A DNA stretch of 64,000 bases from Primula veris (lineage: Eukaryota > Streptophyta > Magnoliopsida > Ericales > Primulaceae): assembly GCA_963682055.1 (NCBI GenBank), contig OY821744.1, forward strand, positions 4,690,835 to 4,754,834, given 5' to 3'. The first letter of the stretch is position 1. Each line of letters begins with the position of its first letter. Below, piece by piece: positions 11,001-50,689 of the stretch. A program made the position numbers and the translations under genes. A model generated the notes under the pieces. It was not told the DNA's origin and made no database searches. It saw only the letters and a list, made by a program, of their open reading frames with translations.

Positions 11001-14000
11001 GCAGCAAGAGTCATGTCATCAGAATAACCTCCATCACGTAGTTGTGAAACTACCCCATGGCGATCAGTTTTAAAATCGTCGGCATGCATCTGCAGGAATG
11101 ATGGAAAAAATTCACAAAGTCTGCATTTTTGGTAAGTTAACATTCTTAAGGAGGTTAACACTCACCATCATGCACCCTCCCCAAAGAAAGAACGTCTTCC
11201 CTCCAGTAGCAAACCCCATCGAACAAGGCTGTCGAAAACGCAATGTTGGAGTATAATCAAAGCAATATATAAAAGTAAAAGAGATATGACCGTATGCAGT
11301 AGGCAAATTATGAATACAGCTAGCATAAATACATACCATATGGTATTCATAAATACAGTAACTCCCTAAACTCCCAGAAGGTAAATCAAGAGGATATCCT
11401 GTTTGAATGAAAATCTGCAAATTAATACCAAAGTAATCAATCCTCTTGAACAAACTAATAAAACAGAGAACTTAAAGCAGTTTTACGAACAGCATACATC
11501 AGGGTTCTTTTCCATCTCGGCCGCGAGGGTTCCAATTGACCCAGGATGGAACCTAACATCATCATCAAGAAACAGTACGTATTTCGTATCTTTCTGTATT
11601 TTTTCCACCCCAACCTACAGATTGTATCAGAACACAGTCTATGAGCAATAACGGAAATCATTCAACATAAGTTGATAAAGAAAAAATGGGGAAAGTTCAA
11701 GTTAAATAAAGTAGACCCAACCCAAAAAGTACTGTAGATATTCACTAACCAATTGATTGTGAACTTTTTGACTGCAAGTGGTCGACAAACCAGCTACAAT
11801 GACCTTTGCATCAACTTCATCCTAAACGAAATATGGAAACAAATAGAAAAAAGAAATGCTGGTTAAGCTCAGAACAAAGCAAAATTTAGTAACACGGTAC
11901 CACTTACTAATTGCTTAGGTCACAGTAATATTCATAAATTATAACACATAAAGAAGATATGCTGAGACGCAGCACACTGTTTTAAGCAGTAAAAAACATT
12001 TCAATAAAAAGAAAATGATTAATATAATTCCATTACAACTAATACCTCATAATCGACTAATAATTGTTTAACAGCACGATAAGCCGGATCTTCTGTGCTT
12101 TCCACCACAAAAAGAAATTCCAATGGACCACCATACAAGGAAGTGATCTGCAATTACAATCATGAACCAGAACCATAATTAATTGCTGTAAATGACAAGA
12201 ATCTCGAAACTTTTGGCATAGAACTACATCACGGAGACTGAACCATGCTCTCCACAAAATTTTTACCTGGCATAAAACGACGTATCTCAAAGAAGCAAAG
12301 ATGAGTTTTAAACTATCAATATATTATTGTATTTTACCTGGCTTCTCCAGTTATGCAAATTGTGCTCCCCAAACCCTTTTAAAGGCATAACAACCGAGAC
12401 TTTTGGCAGGTGAATCTGATTAGAGTGCTCAAGGTCAGTTATATTACGTGAAAGGAACGCAAAACTATTTCCTCCTCTCATACTAGCTTTCATCTTGTTT
12501 ATCTCTCTGTTTCTGCAAGCAAAAATTAAATAATGATACTAATACAAAACTTCGTCTTCAAAATTTACTCAAGCTCACAATTAAAAGAAACATAAGAACT
12601 TAAATTTACACGGTAAAATTGAGAGAACATATTTTAGTACCTGACATAAGCAGCAAGAGCCCAACCCAAAGCAAGGAGTAAGCATATAACACAACCCTAA
12701 AGCATGAACAAAAGGCTCGAATTAATATTTGTCAATATAATTCCATTCGGCGTTAATAACGAGTTAAAAAAATCATAAAAATAAAACATAAATGCGTGTA
12801 TCTTTGCTAAGGGTTATTTTGTTGTTTGGCTAAACTTTCAATATTTTCATTGCAAACATTTAAAAAGTCACACATAATATAGCAGAAAAACTGTTTTATA
12901 TCATTGGCATAACAATACTTGAGACATAAACATGACCTTTACCTATAAAGGCTTTCAAAACTTTGGTGCAACTTGTACACTTCTCAACTACAACCCAAAT
13001 TTAAGCACTGAGTATTGCAGAACCTTACTGATAAACCAACCTAATTGCTCTGAACTGAAACTACAGAAACCATGTTGACCAATAAAATTAACAATTGAAA
13101 GGTAACTATCAAATTTCTTCTCATTTTCTAAACCAACAACTAGTCAAATCAAACAAACTCTTAACTGTCAGGTGGGCCATTTTCAATAAAGTAAAATAAA
13201 CCATAAAGATGTGTCGTCATTTTATTGGCCACTGCCGTCTCGTTCACCTATCCAGAGCTGACACGTAATTCAATCCCAATTCACAATAATTAAACTAAAT
13301 AATACTATATGGAAAGCTCAAATCAAAATAAATTTAAGTGATAACCAAACTTTTGCTGCATTCAATAGTCTATTTTTCATCGATGTTTAAAGAATCGAAA
13401 TCTTAGCTAAAACGTTTTTACAAAAGTTACGATAAAAGAGTAAAAAATGTAAGCTTTTAGTGGAGTAAAAAGCGAAACGGCGAGCTTTTTAATTCAAGTT
13501 TTGACCCAAGCTTTTATCGCGCATCGAATCGAGTTTTTGTACTATAAAACCCGCTTTCTAAAACAATGCTATTCATTCTCCTTAACAGCCCGCATTCCGA
13601 GCCCCTTCCAAAAGATAACATACAAACAATAGGTCTCATTTTTCCGATCCAACGGGACAACATGATTAACCCGATACGCTAAATCTAAACAACACCACAA
13701 ATATCTACATATATACAAAACATTAGCAATACAAATTACGTATACGCATGTACATATTGTAGTTAATGATCGCAAATACACACATATACAGTGAAAACCA
13801 TCATAATCAATATTACAAATTAGAAATGTCACATAATTATGAACATACATTTCTTATACCTACCATCTTTTTTTTCATATACATAAACCAGAAAAATAGA
13901 GAAAACCAAAGATAACAACTGAAACTCATACTCCATAAAACGTTACAAAACATAACAATAAATGCATACAGATTATAGTTACACATATACATGTTTTTCT

Positions 14001-18657: not shown

Positions 18658-20551
18658 CATTGAATTTTTATTTTTATTTGTTTTTTGCACTTATTATTTG
18701 TCACAGCTGCGTAGATTTCATTTTGTTTCTCTAGATATCATGTACTCAATTATTTCCCTGAGAGGTTTGGTTTATGTCCGACTCCTATGTATGTATTGAT
18801 ATTTTATGCTTATATAAAGGTATGGGTCTCTCTAACCTCCTCCATTAGACTGTTTTGGTTGGGAAAAAAAACACATAATTAATTGTCATATATGTAGAAG
18901 TTAAAACAGAAGTGCTACATATACACAACTACTGCTTTTCGATAATTTCTACTTCAAAGCTGAATGTATTTCTTATGAAATAACCTATTATAAAATCATT
19001 TTTTTTACTTTTTTGGCGTTTATATGTAATAATAAAAGATTTACACTATAAAATAATGTTAATTTAGTGAGAGTGTACCGTAAATTGAATAAAATGTCAC
19101 AAAATCGTCACAGAAGTCGTAGTTAAACAACCCGTCACAAAAAAACTGTCATTATTGCCGTGACTATTTAGACATTCGTTTGTAGTGTTTGGGAGATATC
19201 TAAGATCCCTCACAAAATTACTCATTTAATATACTAAAGATCGGTCATGATAGTGTTTCTGTATCTGGCACCCGTAATTCTTGAGGCTTTTCATTTGTAT
19301 ACATGTGATGGTTGATGATGTGCATGACTATTTGATACTTTGCACTTGTTATGAAAAATCGTTAATCCAAACTTCCGAGTGTTGTTATGCACACATGTCA
19401 CTAGAACCTACAACCTACGACCTAACAAGTTAGAAGTTTTGTAGGGAAGTCGAATAAGATGAAGGACGCAAAAGGGATGTGTGGGACGGTGAAGAAGATG
19501 GTTTCTGCTACTTTTATGAATTTATCGTGGAGAACTGTAAAACTAGAAAAAGAGCTTGGTTTGTTAATTTGTCAGACCTTTGACCCCATGGGAAAACAAT
19601 AATCAGTTGTTAAAGCTTGATTATCTTGATTTTTTAGATGGAAAGTGGTGCTTGTTCTCCAATTCATCATATGGCTAAATGGAGCAAAACCAATTTGCAA
19701 TGGTAATTTATTGGATTGAATGTTGAGAGCTCTCGAGCTTGAGGCGAAGCTTCGATGTTCCTCAACTGAGATGTTAAGTTTTGGTTTGATATTTTTTTAG
19801 CTTTTATTATATGAATTATTTCGTTTTATTCCTTGTAGTTTTTTGTGCAGTTGTCATTCCTCTAATCTTTAAGCAATCTGAATGTGAGTTTATCATTAAA
19901 ACAAATATGATGTGTTTGCCAACAATTAACTCGATTCCATTTGACTGTGTTATACCCATGATCAGGCCATTACGATCAACGTTCTTGATGCTAGCTTAAT
20001 TTCAGTTTTGATCACATCCGTTTCATATTTGTTGTATGAATTACTCACGAACAAACCATTTCATTTTATTTTAGTGAACCAACTGATCATTAATTCGATG
20101 GTGCTATTCAAACTCTTACTACTAGAATGAGTTTTTCCTCTTTTTCTTCTTCTTTTTAAATATGTAACCATCCAGTTTGATGCCATCTTTGTAGCACGAT
20201 TAGTTTAAACAAAAAAAAAAATTTGGAGTGTTCACACGTCCACACGGTCAGACACAGTTGGGACTTGGGATACAAGAAACCAAAAAACACGAAGAAAAAA
20301 AAAGACAAATAATTTTGGAAATTTGGAATATTGAAATTCAACAAAAATCAGTAAAAAATTATAAAGAATAATAATATTGTGTATAATAACTATATAAATT
20401 GGTTTTTGCTACAAATATAAAATATTAAATGGTTGCATTCTTACCATATTGTGACACATATTTACAAAGTTATCCTATAATCATGTTCAACTCTTATCCT
20501 AGTATTGCATACGACAATGATATCCGCGTTCGTATACATAGTATGTCAGGT
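18658..20551. other. Intergenic DNA with a miniature CACTA-type element
   Basis: No gene is evident. A miniature CACTA-type element lies at 19044-19187. The rest is AT-rich DNA with short random open frames. Confidence 0.4.
19044..19187. mobile_element. Miniature CACTA-type element
   Basis: The segment starts CACTATAAAATAATG and ends TTTGTAGTG. Its 144-bp body carries the same GTCAC motifs as the larger CACTA element upstream. The flanking trinucleotides are TTA and TTT, so the target duplication is imperfect. Confidence 0.6.
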
Positions 20552-20743
20552 CACTACAAGAAAATATTGAGATAGAAACAGATACCGTTTTTAAAAGTTG
20601 TTACAAATAAAGTGTCGTTAAATTTTAACAATATAATATTAACTAATTATACTGCTAAACTATCGGTAATTCTAAAATAAAATATGTGACGGTCAATTTA
20701 ACAACATTGTTGGGAATTTGTTTGTCGCTGACTCGTTATAGTG
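20552..20743. mobile_element. CACTA-type terminal fragment in the TIM17 promoter
   Basis: The left end is CACTACAAGAAAATA, a classic plant CACTA terminus. A candidate opposite end is CGTTATAGTG at 20743, with GTGACGG and TTGTCGC motifs between. The flanks (GGT and ACA) do not match, so the right boundary is uncertain. The segment ends about 180 bases upstream of the TIM17 start codon. Confidence 0.45.
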
Positions 20744-20924
20744 ACATTTTTATTTTGTAACATTTGAAACCTTGAATAAATCAATTTATTTAGGACTTTA
20801 TCCTAAATTCTTCTAATTATTGCCGAAGTTACATAACCCCTTGCTCAAGAAGCCTTCTTCCCAAAACCCTCCATAAACCCTTACCCAAGACTCCCTCTCT
20901 CTAACTATCTCTCTCTCTAACATA

Positions 20925-22075
20925 ATGGGAACCCCGGAAACCTCACGAGAGCCCTGCCCAGACCGCATCCTAGACGACATGGGTGGCGCCTTCGGAATGG
21001 GTATACTAGGAGGTGGCGCTTTCCACTTCCTGAAAGGCGCAAAGAACTCACCCTTCGGCGAACGCATGCGCGGAGGAGCCACAGCGATGCGTATGAATGC
21101 GCCACGTACTGGCGGAAGTTTTGCAGTCTGGGGAGGTCTCTTTTCGACGTTCGACTGCTCTTTAGTTTACTTGAGGCAGAAGGAAGACCCTTGGAACTCT
21201 ATCTTGGCTGGAGCAGCTACCGGGGGGCTTTTGTCGGTTCGGAATGGGGCTATGGCTGCTTCTAGGTCGGTTCAGAATATTTATTTCACTAAGGTCTATA
21301 CTATCAAGTTAAAAAAATAAAAATTACTATTAGATTCACTAAAAATCAGTGTTTTAAAAAAGCGAAATCTTAGCTAAAGCGTTTTTGCAAGAAATATGCT
21401 AAAAGAGTAAAAAGAGGAAAAGCAAGCTCTTTAAGCTTTGAATCGAGCTTTTTCACTACAAAGCGTGCTTTTTCAAACAGTGCTAATACAGCTTCTCATA
21501 AAAATACTATCGAATTCAGTAAAAATACTACTATATTATTTCCCAATACTGATATATTATTTTCCGATACTACTACATTATTATTAAGTATTTTTGATAG
21601 TATTTTTCTTGAATTTGCTATAGATATTTACAATACTGATATATTATTTTTCAATACTAATACTACTATGGTTGCTTCTAGGTCGGCTCTTTTCGGGGGC
21701 GTCTTGTTGGCGCTTATTGAAGGGGTGCAGGTTTCGGTTAATAAGATGATGGCAAGTCATCAAGAGAAGATGATGGTTTCGATGGTGGAGGGGGAGATGA
21801 AGACAGAGGGTTTTGCCATACCAGTGTGGCTCAGGAAGTGGTTTGAGAAGACGGAAGAGGGGAAGGGGGTGAAAGATGAGGTCTTGGAGAGCTTCGATTC
21901 GCCTATGCCGCCTACGTTTGAGTTTAAGGGGGAGAAGGAGGAAGGTTTTGCCAAGTCATCATGGGTCGGGAAGTTGTTTAGAGGTGGGGAGAAGAAGGAA
22001 GAGGGGAAGGGGGTGAAAGATAAGGTCTTGGAGAGTTTCGATTTGCCTATACCGCCTACATTTGAGTTTAAGTGA
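20925..22075 (+). CDS. TIM17: Mitochondrial import inner membrane translocase TIM17
   Basis: TIM17 is a core subunit of the TIM23 complex, which moves presequence proteins across the mitochondrial inner membrane. Exons 20925-21265 and 21682-22075 join in frame to 244 residues, near the length of plant TIM17-2. The start [18 protein letters not shown] and the segments [20 protein letters not shown] and [13 protein letters not shown] are near-identical to plant TIM17. Exon 1 carries the first three membrane segments and exon 2 starts inside the fourth ([14 protein letters not shown]). Without splicing the frame ends soon after 21265, losing the last segment. Both junction sites are copies of one short sequence, so the intron looks newly made. 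The C-terminal VLESFD..PPTFEFK module, single in Arabidopsis TIM17 as I recall it, occurs twice (21809-21928 and 21944-22072). Confidence 0.93.
21266..21681 (+). repeat. 416-bp insertion in TIM17 acting as an intron
   Basis: The donor context is CTTCTAG|GTCGGT and the acceptor context is TTGCTTCTAG|GTCGGC. Both lie in near-identical copies of ATGGYTGCTTCTAGGTCGG (from 21252 and 21668). The insert is AT-rich and ends in a run of AATACTRATATATTATT-like repeats. Related TACTAT-rich DNA also flanks the large element near 50.3-50.45 kb. A small hAT-type MITE is nested inside at 21347-21482. Confidence 0.8.
21347..21482. mobile_element. hAT-type MITE inside the TIM17 intron
   Basis: The left end CAGTGTTTTAAAAAAGC and the reverse complement of the right end, CACTGTTTGAAAAAGC, form inverted repeats of the plant hAT type. 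The flanking 8-mers (CTAAAAAT and CTAATACA) match only in part. It is related to the element at 13381-13568 in GCS. Confidence 0.6.
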
Positions 22076-22488
22076 GATTAGTTGAATTTACTTGCTTCTA
22101 TTGTGGAAATATTTTCATGGGTTTCGATCAATTTACTAGTACGACGTGTTTTGATTCTTTATTTTTGTTATAGTTTATTGGTCTTGACTCTTGGTGATGA
22201 TGTATTGGGTGCAGATTTTGTGTAATATAATCTGGATTGTACTGACATTTAATGTGTTTTATGTGGCATTGTGAGTTATGGTTATTGAGAATTTACCTCT
22301 GAGAATAAGCAATAAGTTCAATTACATATATTTATAATCCACGAAAAGTTGCTGATATAGAATTTATCTTGTCCTAGCTGAGATGGGTTGTCTTTCAATC
22401 AACTTTATTTTGATAGGTTGGATTTGGATTCAGTGTAGTGTTTGATGCAGTTTGGGTGTAGGTTAGAAGAAATAGGTGAATCCTAGTG

Positions 22489-23330
22489 AGGTAAAATATG
22501 AGGTCTTGGAGAGTTTTGATTAGCCTATGCCGCCTAATTTTGAGTTTAATTGAATCTTTTTCTAGGTAAAATTAATGTTTTTATGTTTATTGATAATTAT
22601 GGAATTTAATTTTTTTGCCTTTTTAACTGGTTGAGCTGAGATGGGGGTGTGTTTCAATTCGGTTAATATTGATCAGTCTAGATGTAGTTCATGTGTAATA
22701 TAATGCACAATTTATAATATCTTGTTTTCATATAATTGTGTTTGAGAAGGCAACATGTGATGTGGTTAATCGGCTTGCTTGTTTTTAATTATATGACTGA
22801 GGTATAATCTTTTGTGTTTCCAACACTTGGGATGGCTGTTGTTTTCTTTTGATTTTGAAGAGTTCCGATTCGCCGATCCACCGACATCTGAGTTTAAATG
22901 AGAATCATTTAGATTAGAAATTTCGTATTTTCCCGGTAATTCATGGAGGTATTGGTTGAATTTACTAGATTTTCTGGTTGAACTATGATGTGCGGTGTTG
23001 GATTTTGGTGATATGGACAGGAAGTGGTCAAGTAATACTTAATTTATTTGATGTAGTTCTGGTGCACTATAGTACAGATTTTAGAATACCATATCCGATA
23101 TAACTGTGTTCGATTAGGCAATATGCGATTCTGCGAATAGGTTAGTCTTGATATGGGTATGGCACCAATATTCGAGTTTAACGAATATTTAGTTACATTA
23201 CAGGGCTAATTGTAGAAATTTAGTTACGTTAACCAGACAGTTGGATGCATTATGGATTGTTATTTTTAAAAACATATGGGTTTGGTGGTAAAGTATTGGA
23301 TGCAGTTTTTGTTTAATATAATTCAGATTT
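22489..23330 (+). repeat. Decayed tandem copies of the TIM17 3' end
   Basis: Remnants of the TIM17 C-terminal coding module recur downstream of the stop. One at 22489-22553 still reads EVLESFD, a stop, then PMPPNFEFN. A weaker one at about 22855-22900 ends PPTSEFK, and another at about 23152-23183 ends PIFEFN. Each is followed 110-150 bases later by a version of the TIM17 3' UTR motif (GATGCAGTTTTTGTTTAATA-like), at about 22205, 22680, 23050 and 23293. This order means coding end plus UTR was duplicated together several times. Confidence 0.75.
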
Positions 23331-24566
23331 TTTTAATAATTTTTTTATAAGTTCTTTTATAGGGTAAAAGAGGTAAAGGAATGTCAACAATAAGTGTGTT
23401 GGATGTGGAAATATAAGATCCAGGTACTGGTAATTTACGATTGATCTGTAATTGGTGAAAAAACAGTTTTACTTGTTCATGGAATTTTATGGGTGAGCCT
23501 GAAAATTCGTCTCCTTGGAGCATAGATGGGCTGTGTTTGGGTAAAAGTTAATTTCAAAATATGGTAATTAATAACTTATGCTAAGGGCTTGGTTTCTAAT
23601 TTCTTGAGAAGTTTTAAGTTGTATTATATAATTGGTAGCTGCAGCCTGCAAGTATATATAGACGGAACAAGTAAAAGTCGATATGGAGTTTTAGTGTTTC
23701 CTCTATGTAAATGCAGTTTTGAAAGCCTTGATTAAAGAATTAAGTCAGACTTTACTTTGCGTCGAAAATTTCATTTAATTTCTGTCTTTATCACCCTTAT
23801 CGTACTCCACTTCCAAACTGGAATAAGATTTTTGCACTGGTGGTGCTGGTTGACCTGCGAGTGAATAGAAAATTGGGATTTGAGTGATTTTATTTTATCG
23901 GATGCAATTCATATAATTTTAACCCTGCTCTAAAAGTTATTATTGCAGTATCTGCAGTTGCTACTCACCTGATTAATGGAATACTGTGGGTGGCTATTTC
24001 AAAGCGTCTAGTTGAAGCTCGTATGAGATCGTGTCTAAACTTAAGTTGCCAACGCACAATAATGCTTTAACATACCAAACCAACCAATGTTAAGAAAAAG
24101 AGGCAAATGTCACGTATCGCCCACTGTCAATTTATCCTTACTCGTGTATCTGATTACTGCCTGGGAATTTTGCTTGCTCCAGCACAGTAAAATTTTGCCA
24201 CTTTCTTTCCCTTTTCTTTTGGTTTTCACAATCTGTTATTTTCTTCTCCTCTTACCATTCATTTCTGCTTGTTACAAATTGATAAGGTTCGAACCGACTC
24301 CATGCGTTCAATATTTTCTTATCAAATAAATGGAAAATGAAAATTGGCTTTGGTTTTTGCATTAGATTGCAATAGGTTCAAAATTTGCTAGGTGGTAAAA
24401 TATTCTCTATCTTATTATTGACTCAAAAATAAAATAAAATTGGAGGAGAGTTCTGGAACAGGATGTTCCTGCTGATTCTTGTAAATTGTATTGACGTGTT
24501 GCATTCAACTCATTGAAATGATGAAGGTAATGTTTTAAAACTTGTGGGCATGGTTCAAATAAATAT
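23331..24566. other. Intergenic DNA
   Basis: I see no gene or recognisable element in this AT-rich stretch downstream of the TIM17 repeats. Confidence 0.35.
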
Positions 24567-28388: not shown

Positions 28389-31339
28389 ATGAGGCTACAA
28401 TTAAATCCCCATTCACTCTTCTCACTAATCAAATCAAGCACTCTTAGTCGCACCATGTCCACGTCAGCAGAACCAATCTCCCCAGGCAACACCAAACTAG
28501 GATTTATCGGGACCGGCGTAATGGGCCGGTCCATGTGTACACACTTAATAAAAGCAGGCTACAAACTAACTATCTTCACACGGACCCAGTCGAAGGCCCA
28601 ATCCCTCATCTCCATCGGAGCCCAATGGGCCGATTCCCCGGCCCAACTCTCTGCCCAATCCGATATCGTCTTCTCCATAGTTGGCTATCCTAAAGACGTA
28701 CGACAAGTTGTTTTAGACCCGAGTGATGGTGTTTTAGCTGGGCTTAGGGAGGGTGGGGTAATTGTGGATATGACCACGAGCGAGCCGAGTCTGGCTGAGG
28801 AGGTTGCTGATGTGGCGGGAAGGAAAGGGTGTGTGGCGGTGGATGCTCCGGTTTCTGGGGGAGACTTGGGTGCGAGGAATGGGAGGCTTGCGATATTTGC
28901 GGGTGGGGATGAGGGGACTGTGGATCGGCTCCGACCTTTGTTCTCTCTCCTTGGCAAGGTATGATTTGTTTTTCGACTTATATGCTCGTTTTTTTTTTTT
29001 TTTTTTTGTAATTAGTTCATGTTTGTTTGCGATATACTACTAATTGTGAGAGGCCGGTTTTCTATATAATTTGTTTTCATACCATTTATGGATTTTTGTT
29101 TGTAATATGGTGTGTTGTGAACGCTAATTTTTGCTAGCATACTTTTTGTCAAATTAATAAACAGAAGTGGTCAAAATTGGATGAATAAGCAATTTCGGTT
29201 CCCTTTTGAGATGAAAAGTGATGCATTTATACATCAAAACTGGTCAATTCTGAGTTCGAAAGTGATAGTTTTGTCGTACGGAAGTTGTTTAATATGACGG
29301 TAGTATGTTTTGATTATTTGAATTCTGTTTATTTAGTATGAAAATTGTTGGTGTGGAATTCGTTAACTGATGATAGTTTGGTATCGTCAACACTCAACAT
29401 CAATTAAACCTTTATACAATCTGTACTTTGTAGAAACTTAAAGTTTTGAAAGTATGAATGGACTTCTTGTGGAGTACGTCAAAGAAATTATATAAATAGA
29501 AGTTGAGTACAAATTGTAGACTTTGTAGCCCAATGTTTGCTGGTTATGAAATACTGCTATTTCTATCATTTACCGTTATAATGTAACATTAGTTTCTTTG
29601 GAGCTTGGATTTATTAGTTCGGATATTATGAAAGTTTGATCATATACTTCGATTGACTAGACTGGAGTGTTAAGTTAATCCATGAGGTAAACGTATTCTA
29701 AAAGGAGTATCAGTTAATATCACTCATGTTGCACAGCTGACTTCATAAACCTTTTTTCCGCTAAGATAGCCGTTTAGACCTCTTTCTGTGGGTCTCTTGG
29801 CCTGATTCTTAAGCAAGAAGCAGGCTGCTGCCGCTGCTTACAGTGAACACCGTCACTGAAAGTATAAAAGATTTTTTTGTTGGTTAAAAAGGCTGATGCT
29901 TCTCATCAACTGCTTCTGTTGGTTTTCCCACTTTTTTCTGAAGCTTTTTGGTTGAAAGTAGCAGTGTTATTTTCCTATTTATTTACGTTTACGTTGTTTT
30001 TGATAATGTTGAACACTTCATCGCTTTTTTTACGGGATATTTTACTGCTTTTCCATCCATGGACATTATTTGTTACGAATGGATATTCTAGTTGTTGGTT
30101 GATTTAGTAGAACACTGCATAAAAATGTCTGGATTGATGGGTACTCTAGACATGTTTCTACGACTGATCGATCAGGTCGTTTAATTTAAACATGACTGAG
30201 AGTCCATTTGGCAACAGTTTTTTTTAGCTGATTTTTTATTTTAAAAGGTTGTGGGTTTTTGGACAGTTAGATTAAATAGCCTTTAAAAAGCAGATATTTA
30301 GGCTAAAAAGGCTAAAAAATCTATATAAAAAATTTCTGGGTTTTCAGTGGATTCTTAAAACAGATTTTTTATCGTTGCCAAACATAACCTCAGCCCTATG
30401 AGGTAATGCCAGGGGAAGTAAAGCACCCCCAGCACTTCTGATATTTATTTGTCAAACAGTAGAATCATGCAACTTCGGGATTATAATTTTTGGAAAGTAA
30501 TCACCTGGCGGACCTCCATAAGTTAATTGTTTGTCATGGGTCTATAACGTTCATGGTATATATTTCTAGGCCCTCTTACTTTTTGCCTTAAAAGATTGAA
30601 AGAGACATAAATACAGATTACTGATTAGTAATAAGTAATAATTATCCAGTGTCACTAGTAAAGAGTTGTTTATATTGTCCTGTTCTAGGATATAGTAGCA
30701 TTGTCTCATTGATTTTACAAGTTGGTCAATGATGTCTTTGTATCTTGAAAAGTGTGTTTATGGAGAAGAGATAGCAGTCCGAAAGAGTAGGCATGGTTTA
30801 CTAATTGCAAGAGTAGGCCTTTCTCGAACTATTTATCTTCCTGTATTTTTTAGTTCGTTAAATTTCTCGTTTTCGATAATAGCATCTACTTTTGATAACA
30901 GGTTTACTACATGGGTGGGCCTGGGAAGGGGCAATTCGCAAAGCTAGCTAACCAAATCACCATAGCCTCAACCATGGTTGGGTTAGTGGAAGGTTTAGTA
31001 TTTGCTCACAAAGCAGGTTTAGATTTATCCCTTTATTTAACCGCCATATCCACAGGGGCAGCCGGGTCGAAATCGCTAGATTTATACGGATCGAGGATTT
31101 TGAAGAGAGATTTCGAGGCGGGGTTTTTTGTGAACCATTTCGTTAAGGATTTGGGGATTTGTTTAAGAGAGTGTCAGAATATGGGCTTAGCTTTGCCTGG
31201 GTTAGCACTGGCTCAACAGCTGTATCTATCTCTAAAGGCTCATGGGGAGGGAGACCTCGGTACACAGGCTCTGGTTTTGGCTCTTGAGAGGCTAAATAAT
31301 CTGTCTCTTGAGGGTGCTGGTTCGCCCGAGAAGGCTTAG
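28389..31339 (+). CDS. 3-hydroxyisobutyrate dehydrogenase-like protein, probably mitochondrial
   Basis: The protein belongs to the NAD(P)-dependent beta-hydroxyacid dehydrogenases, which include 3-hydroxyisobutyrate dehydrogenase of valine breakdown and plant glyoxylate/succinic semialdehyde reductases. Exons 28389-28958 and 30902-31339 join in frame to 335 residues, the length of Arabidopsis 3-hydroxyisobutyrate dehydrogenase-like 1. Motifs are the Rossmann GFIGTGVMG (residues 38-46), the substrate-binding DAPVSGG (152-158) and the catalytic Lys in GKGQFAKLANQ (Lys 204). The first 22 residues are rich in Ser, Leu and basic residues with no acids, which fits a mitochondrial presequence. A second ATG at 28455 would give a shorter form without it. 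The 1943-bp intron holds a probable MITE at 30190-30395. The exact substrate cannot be told from sequence. Confidence 0.92.
30190..30395. mobile_element. Probable MITE in the HIBADH-like intron
   Basis: The left end GTCCATTTGGCAACAG and the reverse complement of the right end, TTATGTTTGGCAACGAT, form short inverted repeats around an AT-rich core. TTTGGCAAC-type ends are common in plant MITEs. I could not define the target duplication. Confidence 0.45.
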
Positions 31340-31525: not shown

Positions 31526-33207
31526 GTAACGAGTTATGAAAGTTTTAAGGGTTTCAAAGAAGCCATATGGCATATTGTAAGGAAGCTTACTATGTAATGG
31601 TTCATTTGAGGAATTGGTGATAATAATGAGATATGGATATATTGGTGTTTGCTTGTACTTGGAAGAGTTAAAATTATTGTGTTTTTTTTTTTCCTTTGAA
31701 AACGTGACTTCGTAAAAATTGTGGCACTCCAACGAGGCAGGACAATCCTTTTACTTTATAATTTGCTCAACTTTCTACTGTCTGTATTTATTGAAGCCAC
31801 ATACTTTTTCCCCTTGGCTTTTAGATATGAATGCTATAGTATAGGAACTAGCAGAACAATTGAACAAAAGTATATCCTACAGAATCACATTTTTTTCCAA
31901 TTTTGTTGTAGTTTATAAGATCCTTTGAAACTTTTCTAAGCTACCTTTTTTGTAATTGTTTGTTGTAAGTAGAAGATACTAGTTGGTCTGGAGAAAAAAA
32001 AAAAAATGGGGTGGCAGTAAATCAAATATATGAGTAAGGTTAAATTGACAGTGGCGACACGTGAAACTTTTACCTACACTTGTTTAATTAGTTTGGTAAT
32101 GTAAGGAACTTTTTGGCACATTGCCAACTTGACGTTTATTATATTCGTTTTGAAGGTTAGCAATCATCTCTTAAATGCCATCAATACGATATATAAGTGG
32201 CTGATATTTGATACATTAGAGGTTGCAGTAATTTAAAAAAAACTCCTTAATCGGCTTTAGCTAAACTTTGTAAAGACTAAGAAACCAAAAGGCTACAAGT
32301 GTACTCTCAAAGGAAGAAGACTCGTAAATATCAGTTGCAAAAACGAAAATAGACTTAATTGTGACTAAATCAGAGATTACACGAACTATTTAACTTTGAT
32401 TTGCATCTGGAAGCTACTTAATTTGCTTCAGGAATCACATGAACCACATCAGTACTATATTTTAGAGCATAAACACAAGCTAATAATAAAAATAAATAAA
32501 GTAATTGTCAGCTGTATGAGTACAGTACAAATTGTAACAGGTTGCCAAAGATATTGCAAGTCATACTCAAAAGTAAAAAACAAGCACTGATGGTGGTGAA
32601 GCGAAACTGAAAGATTTCCTGTCCAACTTATAATCGAATATCGCCTAATAAATCAGTAACGGCATAGCATTGCCTTTTGGAACATGATGCTGCAAATCAT
32701 GTACGAGTTACAACATAAAAATCACTTTATACACAAAAAAATATCCAAATATTAAATAATAAAAGAACTTTGACCCACACACAGCTCCAACAAGAAGAGT
32801 TTTTAGCTTATCACCACCCATAAATTTCCATGAACAAGAAAAACTGTATCTTGCCAATCACGGTTTAATCATTATATACCAGTAACTGGTCTTATATGGC
32901 CACATTGAAGGCACTTAATATTGTTAAAGGCATAGGAAAAGTCTGCATTTAATAACCCAAAAGCTGCATCCAGTACATTGTCACCAAACCCATAAGTGAC
33001 AACGAAAATAATTTATAACACCTTTCAGTAGCCGGTGATATTTTAAAGTAACAAAAACCCATAAATTTCCACAATAAACCCTTTAATATAACTGATCATA
33101 ATTAAGCTCAAAAGTTGGCGGCATAAGTGTATCAAGGCTAACCTTGTCAAAGAATCGCATATTGCCTTATCGAACACAATTATGTAGGATAAGGTTATCC
33201 AAAATCC
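31526..33207. other. Intergenic DNA
   Basis: No gene is recognised. The 3' side is the insertion site of the Copia element, with the 5-bp target AATCC at 33203-33207. Confidence 0.4.
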
Positions 33208-33734: not shown

Positions 33735-36700
33735 TCATGCTCGGAGTCCTACTGAGGTTGCACACAGCCTCAGTTTGTCGATTGTAACAGTCTTCGTTAG
33801 CATATCGGCGGGGTTCTTAGCGCCCTCAATCTTTTCTAGCGCGAAGATTCCTTCTTCTAGAACAGCCCGGATAAAATGGTAACGAATCTGTATGTGCTTT
33901 GTGCGTGAATGGAATACAGGATTCTTAGCTAGCTGAACTGCACTTTGACTATCACAGTGCAGAACTCCCTTGTCGGTTTTCTGACCGAGCTCCCTTAAGA
34001 AACCTTGCAACCAAATCATCTATTTGCTTGCTTCCGTCACCGCGACGTACTCAGCCTCTGTGGTCGACAATGCAACAATCTTTTGCAACTTAGATGTCCA
34101 ACTCACAGCAGTACCACCGAAGGTACAAACACATCCCGTTGTGCTCTTTCGGCTGTCCAGATCACCGGCCATGTCAGCATCCACATAGCCGTGCAGGCCT
34201 TCCGAGGTCTTTCGGAAACATAATGCCAAACTCACGGTATCCGAGAGATATCTCAATATCCACTTCACAGCTTCCCAATGGTGCTTTCCTGGGTTACTCA
34301 TGTAACGACTAACAACTCCCACTGCATGGGCAATGTCTGGTCTTGTACACACCATAGCGTACATCAAGCTACCAATTGCTGAAGCGTAGGGTATGTTCAA
34401 CATACGATCATTTCCTTCCTTGTCCGAGGGTGATTGTTCCTTCGACAAGCTAAAGTGTGCGGCTAGCGGTGAGCCTACAGCTTTGGCATCACTCATGCTA
34501 AACCGTGCCAACACTTTCTTCACATACTCGGCTTGTGACAGAAACAGGGACCCATCCCTTCCTCGAGATATCCTCATACCGAGGATCTGATTTGCGGCAC
34601 CCAAATCCTTCATCTCGAACTGTTTCGCCAACTGTTGCTTCACCTTGTTTATCTCAACAAGGCTCGACCCGGCGAGCAACATGTCATCTACGTACAACAG
34701 TAGTATGACATAAGAAGAGTTCTCAAATCTCTTCACGAAACAGCAGTGATCGCTATCACTTCTTTCGAACCCGGTATCCGCCATGAAACTGTCAAACTTC
34801 TTATACCACTGCCGTGGTGCTTGTTTTAACCCGTACAAGCTCTTCCGCAGTTTGCAGACCAGTTTCTCTTTTCACTTTTCGGCAAACCCTTCAGGTTGGA
34901 GCATGTAAATTTCTTCATCGAGATCTCCATGGAGAAAGGCAGTTTTCACATCTAACTGCTCGAGATGAAGATTCGCATTTACAACAATGCTCAACAATAG
35001 CCGAATAGTCGTCATCTTTACGACTGGTGAAAAGATCTCGGTGTAGTCAATTCCTGCCTTTTGCTGGAACCCTTTGACTACTAGGCGTGCCTTATACCGT
35101 TTCGTGCCGTTTTGTTCCTCCTTCAGTCGGAACACCCATTTATTGCTCAGTGCCCTCTTCCCCTTGGGCAGTTCGGCTAACTGCCAAGTCACATTCTTCT
35201 CGAGTGACTTCATCTCATCCTTCATCGCGAGCTCCCACTTGCTCGAGTCTTTCAGCTCCAGAGCTTCTTCTCTACTTTCGGGCTCTCCTGCATCACTGAG
35301 AAATATGTAATGCAGGGAAGGAGAGTATCGGGCAGGAGGTCTCCTCACGCGATGACCTCGGCCCAATTCAGGTCGGGGAGTTTGGGGCAGCTCCTCGGCC
35401 TCTTCAGCATCTGCTGGTCGGTTGTCGAGCACCACTGGCTCATCTTCAATGTCATTTTCCAACATTCTTGGAAACGCATTCATGTCGACCATACCACTTT
35501 CCTCGGACGGGAGCGCATCTTCTTCCACCACTACATTTTGACGATCTTTGTACAAAATGCTTTCGTTGAAGATGACATCCTTACTGCGAATGATCCTCTT
35601 TGCTTGACCATCCCAGAAGCGATATCCGAATTCAACTCCACCGTACCCTACAAAGTAACACACTTTAGATTTCGAGTCAAGCTTGGTACGTTCATTTATG
35701 TCGACATGGGTATATGACAGACAACCGAACACTCGCAAGTGTTCATACGAGATAGGCTCTCCTATCCACACTTCCTCGGGAATCCTCCTTTCTAGGGGCA
35801 CTGAGGGTCCGCGGTTAATGAGGTAAACCGCCGTGCTTACTGCATGTGCCCACAAGGCTTTGGGCAACCCACTTTGCAGTCTCATACTCCTAGCACGCTC
35901 ATTGATTGTTCGGTTCATTCGCTCGGCCACGCCATTCTGCTGTGGCGTTCTTCGGATGGTCTTCTCCATTCGAATGCCTCTCTGAGCACAGAACTCTACG
36001 AACTTCGCATCAATGTACTCTCCGCCGTTATCGGACCTCAAACACTTGAGTTTATTCCCGGTCTCTAGTTCGACCATGGCCTTCCATTCTTGGAATTTCT
36101 TAAACACCTCAGACTTGTGTTTCAAGAAGTAGACCAATGTTTTCCTCGTCGAATCATCGATGAAGGTCACATAGTACCGAGCTCCTCCCAGTGAGGTTAC
36201 TGGAGATGGTCCCCATACGTCTGAGTGGACCAGTGCTAGCTTCTCCTCCTTGGGAGCTTTTCCACCTTTCCGGAAGCTCACTTTCTTCTGCTTTCCGAAG
36301 ATGCAACCTTCACACATATCGAGGTTGACAGACTTCAAGCCTGGAAGTTTGCTGTCCTTCGCTAACACCTTCATCCCCTTCTCACTCATGTGACCCAACC
36401 GTCGATGCCACAGTTCCGAGCAGTTCTGCGACACAGCTGTCGCAATTGTACGCTCATCATCGGTCGTCATGTACAATGTACCGACCTTACTCCCTCGGGC
36501 TATCACCATAGCTCCTCGTGAAACTTTCCAAGCTCCACTGCTGAACGAAATGGAGTGCCTTTCGGCATCGAGTTGACCTACTGAGATCAGATTCTTGGTC
36601 AACCTCGGGACATGCCTCACTTTCGTTAGCTTCCATACCGACCCATTTGGAATGCGAATCTTCACATCGCCAGTTCCAACAACATCCAACGCTTCTCCGT

Positions 36701-37676
36701 CGGCTAGATACACTTTACCGAAATTACCCGCATGGTAATTTTCGAATAAATCCTTCTGAGCGGTCGTGTGAAATGATGCCCCAGAGTCTAGAATCCACGA
36801 ATCTATGTCTCTCTGTACGGCAAGCATTAAACAGTCATCCGAATCCTCGTCGCTCGCAACATTAGCCCCGTGATCACGGCCGGTACTCTTCTTCGGCTGC
36901 TTGCACTCATGACTGAAGTGCCCCATACCCTGGCAGTTATAGCACCGAAGATTCTTCTTACTTCGGTCGCTATCTTTACCTCCTCGGCTAAGCCCTCTTC
37001 TACCTCGGGATTGCGAACGTCCTCTAACGTCCCATACCCTGGCCTTACCCCGGTCTCTTGAACCCATGTTCAAGGCTGCTCCATCATTTGAGCATTCACC
37101 CATATCCAATCTCCTGAGTTCCTCAGCGAGTATTTGATCTCGGATGCCGTTGTAAGTCAGTTTCTCCTTTCCAATTGAGTTGCTAACAGCAGCTCGCATG
37201 AATTCCCAACTGTTCGGTAGAGATGCTAGCAGTATAAGGGCTCTCACTTCATCTTCAAAAGTTATCTCCACCGCATCCAACTGATTTACGGTGTCGATGA
37301 ACTTGTTCACGTGACTCGCGACAGGTGTCCCCTCAGCCATGCGTAGGTTGAACAACTTACGCATGAGATGTACCTTGTTGTTCGCGGATGGTTTCTCATA
37401 CATGTCGGTGAGGACCTTTATCATCCCCATCGTCGTCGTCTCTCTTGCGACGTTATGTGCGACACTCCTAGATAGTGTTAGGCGGATCACTCCCAACACT
37501 TGTCGGTCTAAGAGTTTCCACGCCTCCTCGGTGGTCGTGGTCGGCCTTTCCTCAAGTAGAAGTGGCTGATGCATCTTCCTCCCGTACAGGTAGTCCTCTA
37601 TTTGCATTCTCCAGAATGCGAAATCCTTCCCGTCGAACTTCTCGATCCCGTGTGCGGTTCTGTCTTCTTTCGCCAT
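33735..37676 (-). pseudogene. Copia gag-pol with two in-frame stops
   Basis: One long frame reads in order: gag (from 37676), a CCHC zinc knuckle (CX2CX4HX4C), the aspartic protease motif DSGA, the pre-integrase HRRLGH motif, the integrase core with its D,D,E residues, reverse transcriptase with the LYVDDM active site, and RNase H ending at 33735. The frame is kept throughout but is broken by TGA at 34872-34874, inside reverse transcriptase, and by TAG at 34020-34022, inside RNase H. The first 934 residues, through integrase, are open. I see no frameshift. The breaks should prevent full-length polyprotein synthesis. Confidence 0.95.
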
Positions 37677-37688
37677 CGATCTTCCTCA

Positions 37689-47686: not shown

Positions 47687-50467
47687 AATATTATGTAACC
47701 TAGGCACGAAAAGGCAAAGAAGAAAAGAATCATTAAGAAAAATGTCGCAATTGAATACCTAACATAGTTGCAAAAAAGCATTAAAGGAAATTCCTAAAGA
47801 TATTTCAAAACACACAGGCTTGTCGATGATAAGCGATAGTAAGAGGCAACAATGGCGTTGTTCATTGGTCACTTTCTTCTTTTCTGGAATGTCCTAAATA
47901 TGCAGAGAATAAAGAAAGATATATTATGACTGATATGTTACAATGTGAATAGACTATGTTCCTTTTTTGTTGAATACATTTTTTCCTTATAAAGAAAGAG
48001 CAAAGCTACAGAAGAAAAGCCAATAAAAACTTCTTCTACTAAAATTTGATTATTCATTACTAATCCTGTAATCCACATTAAACTTAACAAAAAAGAACCC
48101 GCCTCCACTTTTTACCCAAATTTAATTAACTTCATACTCCATGATTTCAATACTTGCTTCCACCAGTTATTTGTGAATATTCAGAGTACTTTCTCAATTT
48201 TTTCCTCATATGCCTGTCTTTCCTAAAAGGTTAGTGAACCACAGGCTCGAATGTGAAGATATTTTCACTCCTTGCCACTCTCTCTACAACAGTAATCTTA
48301 AGAGACAATGTTCACTAGCAAATTATTTTTATGGTTGGTGACCTAGAGGCCAGCCAAACCTACCCGGCTTCTCTAGAAGTAAATTTATAAATTTCACTCT
48401 GAAATTACTTTTAAAATGCCCAGAGATGAGTAAAAAATGCCCAAATAAGCAAAAAAAAATACCAGAACAATTCCCTAACATGTCAAAAAAGTAAAAATAA
48501 AATAAAAAATGATGGCATGTTTTAGATTTTGCCTAGGTAATTTACCTCAAGGGTCGCCTCTAGTGCACAATACCACAACAGCCCTACACATATTAGTTAA
48601 AGTAAATTATGTTGTATCACAAAGTTGTATAATTTTTAGTATGATTTCTTACCAAACAGAAGTATGAAAATAGATTTGCTAAATTAATTACAACCATTCA
48701 CAAAATCAGGATAGAGTATTTTCTCGGGGAAACAGAACACGTTTTATAATGATTGTCTTCTCTTCAGTTTGTTTGTCAGATACGGGAAATCAGCAGTGAG
48801 AATTTCACCACATATCCCATGAACATTTGAAGAAGATAAAAAAAAAAACACAAACTTGTAAAGTAAATTGCAAGGAATTCAATTTGGATAGAGACTTGCT
48901 GTTCATGTCGGATAGAAGGGGATGTTCAGAGCAAAGTTATTAAGGGTGCAATTGATCATACCGAGTCACTGACAACAGATGTGCGTCTTTTGCAATTAAG
49001 TGATGATTTTTTTTACTACATCTATAATAGAAATGAGCCTAGTATAAAACTATAAATATAATGTTCTCTGTTGCTTAAGGTGATGAAAACACTGATGCAA
49101 CATGTAAGTTTACTTATTTTTTAATCTTATTTTTCATCATTTATCTTTCCTTATATATTCCTATGTGCATATACTTCAATTGTTGCAATATAAAATCCAT
49201 AAAATTCAGCCCCAAAATAAGGTTTTGTGCTACTGTTTTATTGAGTTCAAAGGCTAAGCCACTGAATTCTATTTGATTCAGTGGGAAGTGTATTCGATTC
49301 ATTACATAAACGGATAAACCTCATTCTTCTTTTTAAAAGCTAAATAATTGTAAACTGCTTTAATATAGAAGATCAAATTGTATCCTTCAGCAATAAAAAT
49401 ACCCAACCAGAATAATTAACTTAGAAATTAACAAATGCATTGTGCATACATGTACTAACCCCGAGTCTAAACGAACCGATATAAAACTACAAGTACATGG
49501 TTACAAGGAGTCAAGGACTGAAAGAGGAGTGGAAAAACAAGTTATGCCATGCAACCCCTTATAGAAACTTAAGGTTGTTCAAATATTAATATGAATGGAA
49601 AAATAGAAGAGTAGGACAATTCCAGATATCACATCTCCATAAACAAACTTAACAAGAGAATAGGTCTTAGAATAACATGATTTTCAGCATAATAAGCAAA
49701 GGATATTGCACGCATATTGATAAAACTACATAAGTATTTAAATTAGTAAGTCAAATTTTATCAGGTTTCCTTAGGCTTTCGGGTTTTTCATATATGTTCG
49801 TAATAAAAAATCAAATTGTTTTTGTAAATCAACGTATCATTCTTCCTAAAGTACTTGTTCAAAAAAATTGTAAAATTTAAACTTTTTTTGTATTTATCCT
49901 TAATATTACTATCTTATTATAGATTGTCAAATAAATAATTAAACATAAAAAATATATAAAAGTCAAATTTTAAGGATTTTTTTTTAACAAACACTTTAGA
50001 AATAAAAACAGTAAGTTGAATTAAAAAAAAAACAAAAAAAATTAAGAATACCTATTAAAACACCGAAAAACTAATGAAAACCTAAGGATTCATAAAATTT
50101 GAAAGTAAAGTGCCTTTAACCTTAGAGGTGAAGTTGATAGGAGACAGAAGGTATGGCAGACTAAGAAGTTGCAGAGACCTATACGCAAATCCTTATTGAA
50201 ACTTTAAAGTGAAGGAATATTTAGGTATATCTTGACTAACTTATTTAGCATATTTCAATCCTTAATTAACTCAAAATAAAACTCTTCAATACTATCAAAT
50301 TAGAAAGATATACTATCAAATTAAAAAGTTAGGTCAATACTATCAAATTAAAAGATATACGACCAATTAATTCAATAATAATATTACCAAATTCAGCAAA
50401 AAAATACTAGTACCAAATTTAACATAAATAGTACTATTTCTAGTTAAAATACTACTATATATTTTTT
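47687..50467. other. Intergenic DNA upstream of F-box gene 2
   Basis: No gene is recognised. The promoter of F-box gene 2 should lie at the left side. Near 50.28-50.46 kb there are short TACTATCAAATTA-type repeats, similar to part of the TIM17 intron, which border the large element that follows. Confidence 0.35.
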
Positions 50468-50689
50468 GGGTCAATGCCCAAAACATACAACGTGTTATAA
50501 AATATTACCAAAACATACAAGCCAAACAAATTATTCTCAAAACATACAATTGACCAAAATAGAAAAAAAAATATATTTCTCCTCACCTACCAAAAAATTT
50601 CTCTTTCTCCTCTCTCCCTCCGCGCTCTCTCTTTCTAAATCATAATTTTTTTTTCACAAAAGACTAACTTATTTAATGTTAAAATGACT

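Follow-up and report, generated by a model that had tools for sequence, protein, structure and literature searches.

Among the seven routes proposed for intron gain is the repair of DNA breaks, which leaves short direct repeats (PMC3443670). Features common to such gains and to the locus described here are direct repeats ascribable to the fill-in of a staggered break, a foreign insert and an unchanged coding sequence (PMC3443670). The table of that review holds five unambiguous break-repair cases, from Drosophila, Daphnia, Aspergillus, Bigelowiella and human, with no plant among them (PMC3443670), and staggered breaks were reported to yield small duplications in mouse and human cells (PMC8355091). 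Vaughn and Bennetzen in 2014, as summarised in PMC7407515, ascribed to patch-mediated break repair a set of rice insertions that measure 10-1000 bp, show tandem or interrupted duplications and derive from ectopic donors. These plant insertions, with their duplications and ectopic donors, are alike to the one found here in gene TIM17; the summary is silent on introns, whereas the duplicated patch of TIM17 carries an exonic AG|GT.

Other routes of gain offer partial likenesses. Two of five gained introns of rice resemble transposons (PMC1779517) and are repeat-made like the TIM17 intron; the account of them names neither target duplications nor splice sites derived from these. Introners are families of similar introns, some of them with 3-9-bp duplications and/or inverted ends, and a survey of 3,325 genomes reported none in land plants (PMC9860276). 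Some Introners recruit splice sites from their target duplication (PMC9860276), as the putative TIM17 intron would, but the latter is a single locus, its duplication is about 21 bp long and the element ends are missing. A recent intron of the potato RdRp gene arose by tandem duplication (PMC4974935); there, unlike in TIM17, the intron consists of the duplicated segment itself and makes use of a 3' splice site that was already in place. In Dictyostelium, two gained introns with known sources had no direct repeats (PMC4683709), and in Daphnia a source was identified for only one of 21 gained introns (PMC4974935), unlike in TIM17, where both a repeat and a filler family can be named.

The origin of introns has long been debated, and most gained introns no longer carry the traces of their birth. 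A strong case needs both an insertion scar and the source of the inserted DNA, and the TIM17 locus seems to keep the two. The mechanism is known in principle, and the locus looks like a new and well-preserved plant case, for which, on the basis of a small literature search, no priority is claimed.

The interruption of TIM17 and its flanking duplication

The window, i.e. the whole stretch of 64 kb that was analysed, corresponds to C5:4690835-4754834 of the Primula veris assembly G000 (436.5 Mb, 34 contigs). Gene TIM17, which encodes a mitochondrial import protein, lies on its plus strand, with exon 1 at 20925-21265 (341 nt) and exon 2, including the stop codon, at 21682-22075 (394 nt). The two are separated by a candidate intron of 416 nt (21266-21681) in phase 2, which interrupts codon 114, runs from GT to AG and has AG|GTCGGT as its donor. 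The GC profile steps sharply, from 57% in exon 1 to 18-34% in the insert and 50% in exon 2. The preliminary description had proposed that the AG|GT present at both edges could serve as donor and acceptor and restore the reading frame, and this proved exact: removal of the 416 nt, joining 21265 to 21682, gives a protein of 244 aa. Twelve GT-AG pairs of the region hold the frame open to the stop, and only 21266/21681 restores the 10-residue string of the family. The restored residues had been described as those of other plants, and the identical string was indeed present in nine members of an alignment of 22 homologues, made up of the paralogue on C1 and 21 of the 120 listed protein matches. The TIM17 genes of Arabidopsis are not known to have an intron at the corresponding place.

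Features of spliceosomal introns found here are the GT-AG boundaries, a branch-like motif, an AT-rich interior and the exact restoration of the frame. The donor is weak. It has C at +3 and G at +4, and its predicted pairing with U1 reached -6.4 kcal/mol, compared with -14.0 for a consensus donor; the site scored best among the 10 GT sites scored between 21181 and 21420. A branch-point-like CTAAT is found at 21657-21661, its second A (21660) being located 21 nt before the last intron base. In this arrangement, ordinary splicing could cleanly remove the candidate intron. A scan of 20500-23500 against Rfam returned no family reaching the gathering score.

Two copies of a 21-nt target, differing by one mismatch and spaced by 416 nt, flank the interruption. 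The left copy, CTATGGCTGCTTCTAGGTCGG (21250-21270), is intronic from 21266 and reaches 21273 with a second mismatch; the right copy, CTATGGTTGCTTCTAGGTCGG (21666-21686), is intronic through 21681, where it comprises a pyrimidine-rich stretch and AG. Their likeness extends to 24 nt with two mismatches (22/24, 92%). The direct repeat of 19 nt with one mismatch that had been noticed at both edges is thus present, and is really two bases longer on the left. At up to three mismatches, the 19-mer occurred twice in the 64-kb window against 0.01 occurrences expected from shuffles. Since the duplicated target held AG|GT, it supplies both candidate splice sites, in support of the earlier proposal on this point. 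Should CTAT at the right junction be part of the filler, the duplication may be only 17 nt long.

The copies differ at 21256 (C) versus 21672 (T) and at 21271 (T) versus 21687 (C). In each mismatched pair, the T falls in the would-be intronic part, both mismatches being thus on the intronic side, and the exonic C occupies the second position in the codon of an alanine which was nearly invariant (Ala112) or invariant (Ala116) in an alignment of 23 sequences. The T at 21271 corresponds to donor position +6 and shifts the predicted U1 pairing from -5.3 to -6.4 kcal/mol, i.e. for the better. This placement of substitutions matches what selection on the exon, combined with freedom or gain in the intron, would predict, two events being too few for a test. 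With two differences over 24 intronic positions, the 95% limits of divergence are 1-27%.

Because introns have AG and G near their junctions by consensus, the repeat was compared with real introns of the same genome, junction matches being counted over 15 and 24 positions. A search for the actin family gave 41 matches, the best 15 of which were made into loci, and 16 junctions could be placed in 10 of these 15 by means of sequence motifs. The 16 actin introns showed 4-8 matches over 15 positions and 6-13 over 24, and one intron of the HIBDH gene of the window 6/15, as compared with 14/15 and 22/24 for the TIM17 candidate. No control intron (0/17) exceeded 8/15, and the direct repeat at the TIM17 boundaries goes beyond splice consensus; a chance origin of this repeat was rejected on the shuffles and the real introns. 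Among 2072 pairs of AGGT located 60-2000 nt apart on both strands of the window, 11 scored at least 14/15, the TIM17 pair included; some of the others correspond to known repeats, for instance the duplicated tail of TIM17.

Two transposable element families within the insert

A genome search with 21286-21667 returned 41 matches (40 of 1189 candidates scored), in which only the home locus appeared at full length. The other 40 listed matches spanned parts of query positions 50-212, that is, a hAT-type element with no more than 15 nt of adjoining sequence. The presence of a hAT-type MITE inside the intron, proposed earlier, was hereby supported, the search having retrieved dispersed copies of a genome-wide family with 8-bp target duplications at several of them. 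No second copy of the whole insert was seen among the 41 listed matches and both ends of the family that makes up the rest of the insert are missing, which speaks against an assignment to the Introners.

The nested element (21347-21482, plus strand) is 136 bp long, with ends CAGTGTTTTAAAA... and ...CAAACAGTG, and is bordered by decayed 8-bp target copies, CTAAAAAT on the left (21339-21346) and CTAATACA on the right (21483-21490), which agree at 5/8 positions. The home copy and seven others could be aligned as one element, the ends of which resemble CAGTGTTTTAAAAAGCG... and ...AAAACAGTG. Their target duplications were matched at 8/8 positions in L006 and L008, 7/8 in L002, L005 and L007, 4/8 in L003 and 3/8 in L004. 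Short inverted ends and an 8-bp target duplication in the family are those of hAT MITEs, and we take hAT to be the superfamily of this element. The home copy differed from the consensus of the other seven at 8/135 sites (5.9%). At a substitution rate near 6e-9 per site and year, this would very roughly place its insertion about 10 million years ago. The intron had been called young; moderately young at most is what the 2/24 intronic differences and the divergence of the hAT copy allow. A further, partly diverged copy of this MITE is located elsewhere in the window, at 13386-13571 (85% over 61 nt, 78% over 46 nt).

The remainder of the insert, hereafter the filler, belongs to a second MITE family. 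Its left part (21271-21346, 18% GC) begins directly after the left 21-mer and aligns from position 57 of the family consensus; its right part (21491-21665) contains an AT-rich array with a 21-bp period (21524-21662) and lacks the terminal part of the family element. A genome search with 21491-21667 gave 57 matches (40 of 76 candidates scored), of which 20 loci were examined, home included, and one with 21266-21346 recovered, besides the home locus, two other places whose likeness starts at query positions 7-8. Complete copies measure about 420 bp and have long imperfect inverted ends. When the insert without the hAT element was aligned with a 422-bp majority consensus of 11 loci, 141/185 columns agreed in the best piece, starting at position 57; TIM17 has no counterpart of the first 56 bp of the consensus or of its right terminal part. 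Over roughly the final 42 bp ahead of the right 21-mer, an internal motif recurs outside its consensus order, which could reflect template switching in a repair patchwork or a variant of the family. The interior of the candidate intron thus came from elsewhere, namely from the inner part of an element that belongs to a dispersed MITE family.

Both ends were present in six of the filler copies examined (two of which, L016 and L029, look like one insertion), and a clear target duplication, of 8-9 bp, was found at L027 alone. MITEs of the MULE type, to which the filler family may belong, have long inverted ends and target duplications of 9-11 bp. At TIM17, the gap between the 21-bp repeat and the MITE-like span is 0 nt on one side and 3 nt on the other, whereas no abutting repeat of comparable length was found at the 19 other filler loci examined; at L023, a 16-nt repeat lies 142 and 65 nt off. 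Likewise, none of these 19 loci had a hAT element in or beside the filler, a diverged copy being located more than 1 kb away at L020. A 19-nt repeat, TACATATATCGAGCTCGCT / TACCTATATCGAGCTCGCT, was observed 93 nt off one side of L014 (G000:C9:1966330-1966454), in a complex repeat region. Within the window, AATACTATCAAATTAAAAA-type sequence resembling the filler family also occurs at 50288-50470.

A probable break repair and its competing explanations

The insert, consisting of an internal MITE fragment without ends and a nested hAT MITE, corresponds neither to a tandem exon duplication nor to a clean transposition. On the sequence evidence, we infer, with a probability of about 0.6, that the intron was created when repair of a staggered break captured a fragment of a MITE. 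The break would have occurred in the TIM17 exon, with nicks some 17-24 nt apart around ...CTTCTAGGTCGG..., the target presumably having been a single uninterrupted CTATGGCTGCTTCTAGGTCGGCTC before the gain. Fill-in and end-joining, the interior of a MITE contributing about 250 bp by copying or capture, would then have doubled the target. With AG|GT inside it, the left copy would have become the 5' splice site and the right copy the 3' splice site, the latter also contributing its pyrimidine-rich stretch, while the AT-rich filler would have provided the low GC content and a branch point. Excision of 21266-21681 would leave the mRNA unchanged. The hAT MITE would have inserted into the filler afterwards, this order being suggested by the nesting, and by the fact that none of the matches seen combined the two elements. 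Such a scar explains why an insertion at AG|GT need not damage the gene. If the intron is spliced, it offers a signature that can be searched for in any plant genome, namely an AT-rich intron of repeat origin enclosed by a direct repeat with AG|GT at its centre.

The main rival is that the same insertion is inefficiently spliced and that the window gene is a decaying copy of TIM17 with leftover open frames. It owes this rank to the unusually fast evolution that the gene appears to have undergone, under relaxed or altered constraint: over the first 145 residues, 10 private changes were counted at positions where conservation is otherwise at least 95%, compared with 0-5 for each of the 22 other sequences, and four of the 10 are adjacent (residues 129-132). 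The weak donor, an unspliced reading which terminates after 131 aa and the decayed tail copies downstream of the gene point the same way. An intact exon 2 says little to the contrary: in simulated neutral decay at 6% divergence it stayed free of stops in 0.39 of runs, and in 0.067 when indels were included at an assumed rate and frameshift share. Because decay so often leaves exon 2 open, the intact frame is weak evidence of function, and its use as proof was abandoned. Against a broken gene are the 244 open codons with both halves in frame, an unaltered core motif of 14 residues, and the placement of the substitutions of the duplication on the intronic side, where exonic copies keep conserved alanines and one change improves the donor. 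We consider this reading possible but much less probable than a functional intron gained by break repair.

Transposition, either of a MITE making an unusually long target duplication or as a normal insertion trimmed at its ends later, accounts for an interior of MITE sequence adjoined by a duplication and has precedents, since transposon-derived gained introns were reported from rice (PMC1779517) and Oryza and Zea are among the taxa for which the review table gives transposon insertion (PMC3443670). We nevertheless hold it unlikely. Both family ends are missing, the only clear target duplication in the six both-ended copies is the 8-9 bp of L027, and loss of the ends exactly up to both target copies would require two precise deletions, so that a canonical insertion trimmed on both sides is less simple than break repair. 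Canonical MITE transposition is disfavoured by the absence of these ends; inspection by eye found no poly-A or other retroposon tail beside the repeat, which speaks against a SINE or LINE origin as well. Tandem duplication of an exon segment containing AGGT (the Rogers model) predicts exactly the arrangement of AGGT seen (PMC3443670, PMC4974935) and had been left open in the preliminary description. With two repeat families and nothing exon-like between the copies, this variant was rejected, and even a later replacement of its interior appears very improbable. Hardly any credence is left for an old intron with ends alike by chance or by splice consensus: AG and G near the junction are indeed common to introns, but the control introns stayed far below the match counts of TIM17.

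The TIM17 genes and their surroundings

The predicted product of 244 aa has a Tim17 domain (PF02466, 110 bits) and resembles the solved Tim17 chain 8e1m as well as plant TIM17 proteins (2257 protein matches, 120 listed). Its C-terminal tail is duplicated in frame within exon 2 (21799-22077). Decayed copies of this tail were observed downstream at 22490-22553 and 22855-22903, and a short inverted tail-like match is located 11 kb off (33092-33148, minus strand), in which case the flanks also resemble each other (23077-23549 versus 33206-32766, 64%). A 3-hydroxyisobutyrate dehydrogenase-like gene (HIBDH, 28389-31336) follows at 6 kb. TIM17 and HIBDH are also numbered consecutively in Buddleja alternifolia (Bualt16G0061300, 0061200) and in Sarracenia purpurea (U1Q18_028645, 028646), for which reason the window gene looks like a positional orthologue; the records of both species are proteins and thus silent on introns. 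Many asterids were found among the top protein matches of the two genes, at 49-83% identity. No relatives of TIM17 were found in the prokaryote genome contigs and viral contigs searched.

A protein search of the genome revealed one further TIM17, from C1:34332590 downwards (four matches, two per gene). This paralogue is contiguous over the site of the window intron, where it reads PASKSALFGG and has neither AGGT nor a repeat. Conversely, the window gene is contiguous where the C1 gene has an intron of 965 bp, at codon 96 (G000:C1:34331340-34332304; L011:544-1508, minus strand). The junctions of the C1 intron form a 14/15 direct repeat across AG|GT, ATTGCAG|GTGATGCT and ATTGCAG|GTGCTGCT, which was noticed after the fact and declines to 16/28 over a wider stretch. 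Apart from about 90 bp resembling six dispersed places at 73-79%, this intron had no other match in the genome that would name a source, and it may be old. It is tempting to speculate that both TIM17 genes gained introns independently (codons 114 and 96) when staggered breaks, offset by about 15-21 nt and spanning an exonic AGGT, were filled in, although we regard this as doubtful. If true, break-repair intron gain would still be active in the lineage, with footprints that can be counted genome-wide. Comparison of dN/dS between the two genes was uninformative on the time since insertion, synonymous sites being saturated.

Two further observations concern the window. About 370 bp upstream of the TIM17 start, at 20552-20564, stands one copy of CACTACAAGAAAA, presumably like the end of a CACTA-type element, which 19/100 shuffles matched with at most one mismatch. 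Finally, the polyprotein of a Copia-type retrotransposon was recognised by eye from its translation at 34023-37685 (minus strand), in two long open frames.
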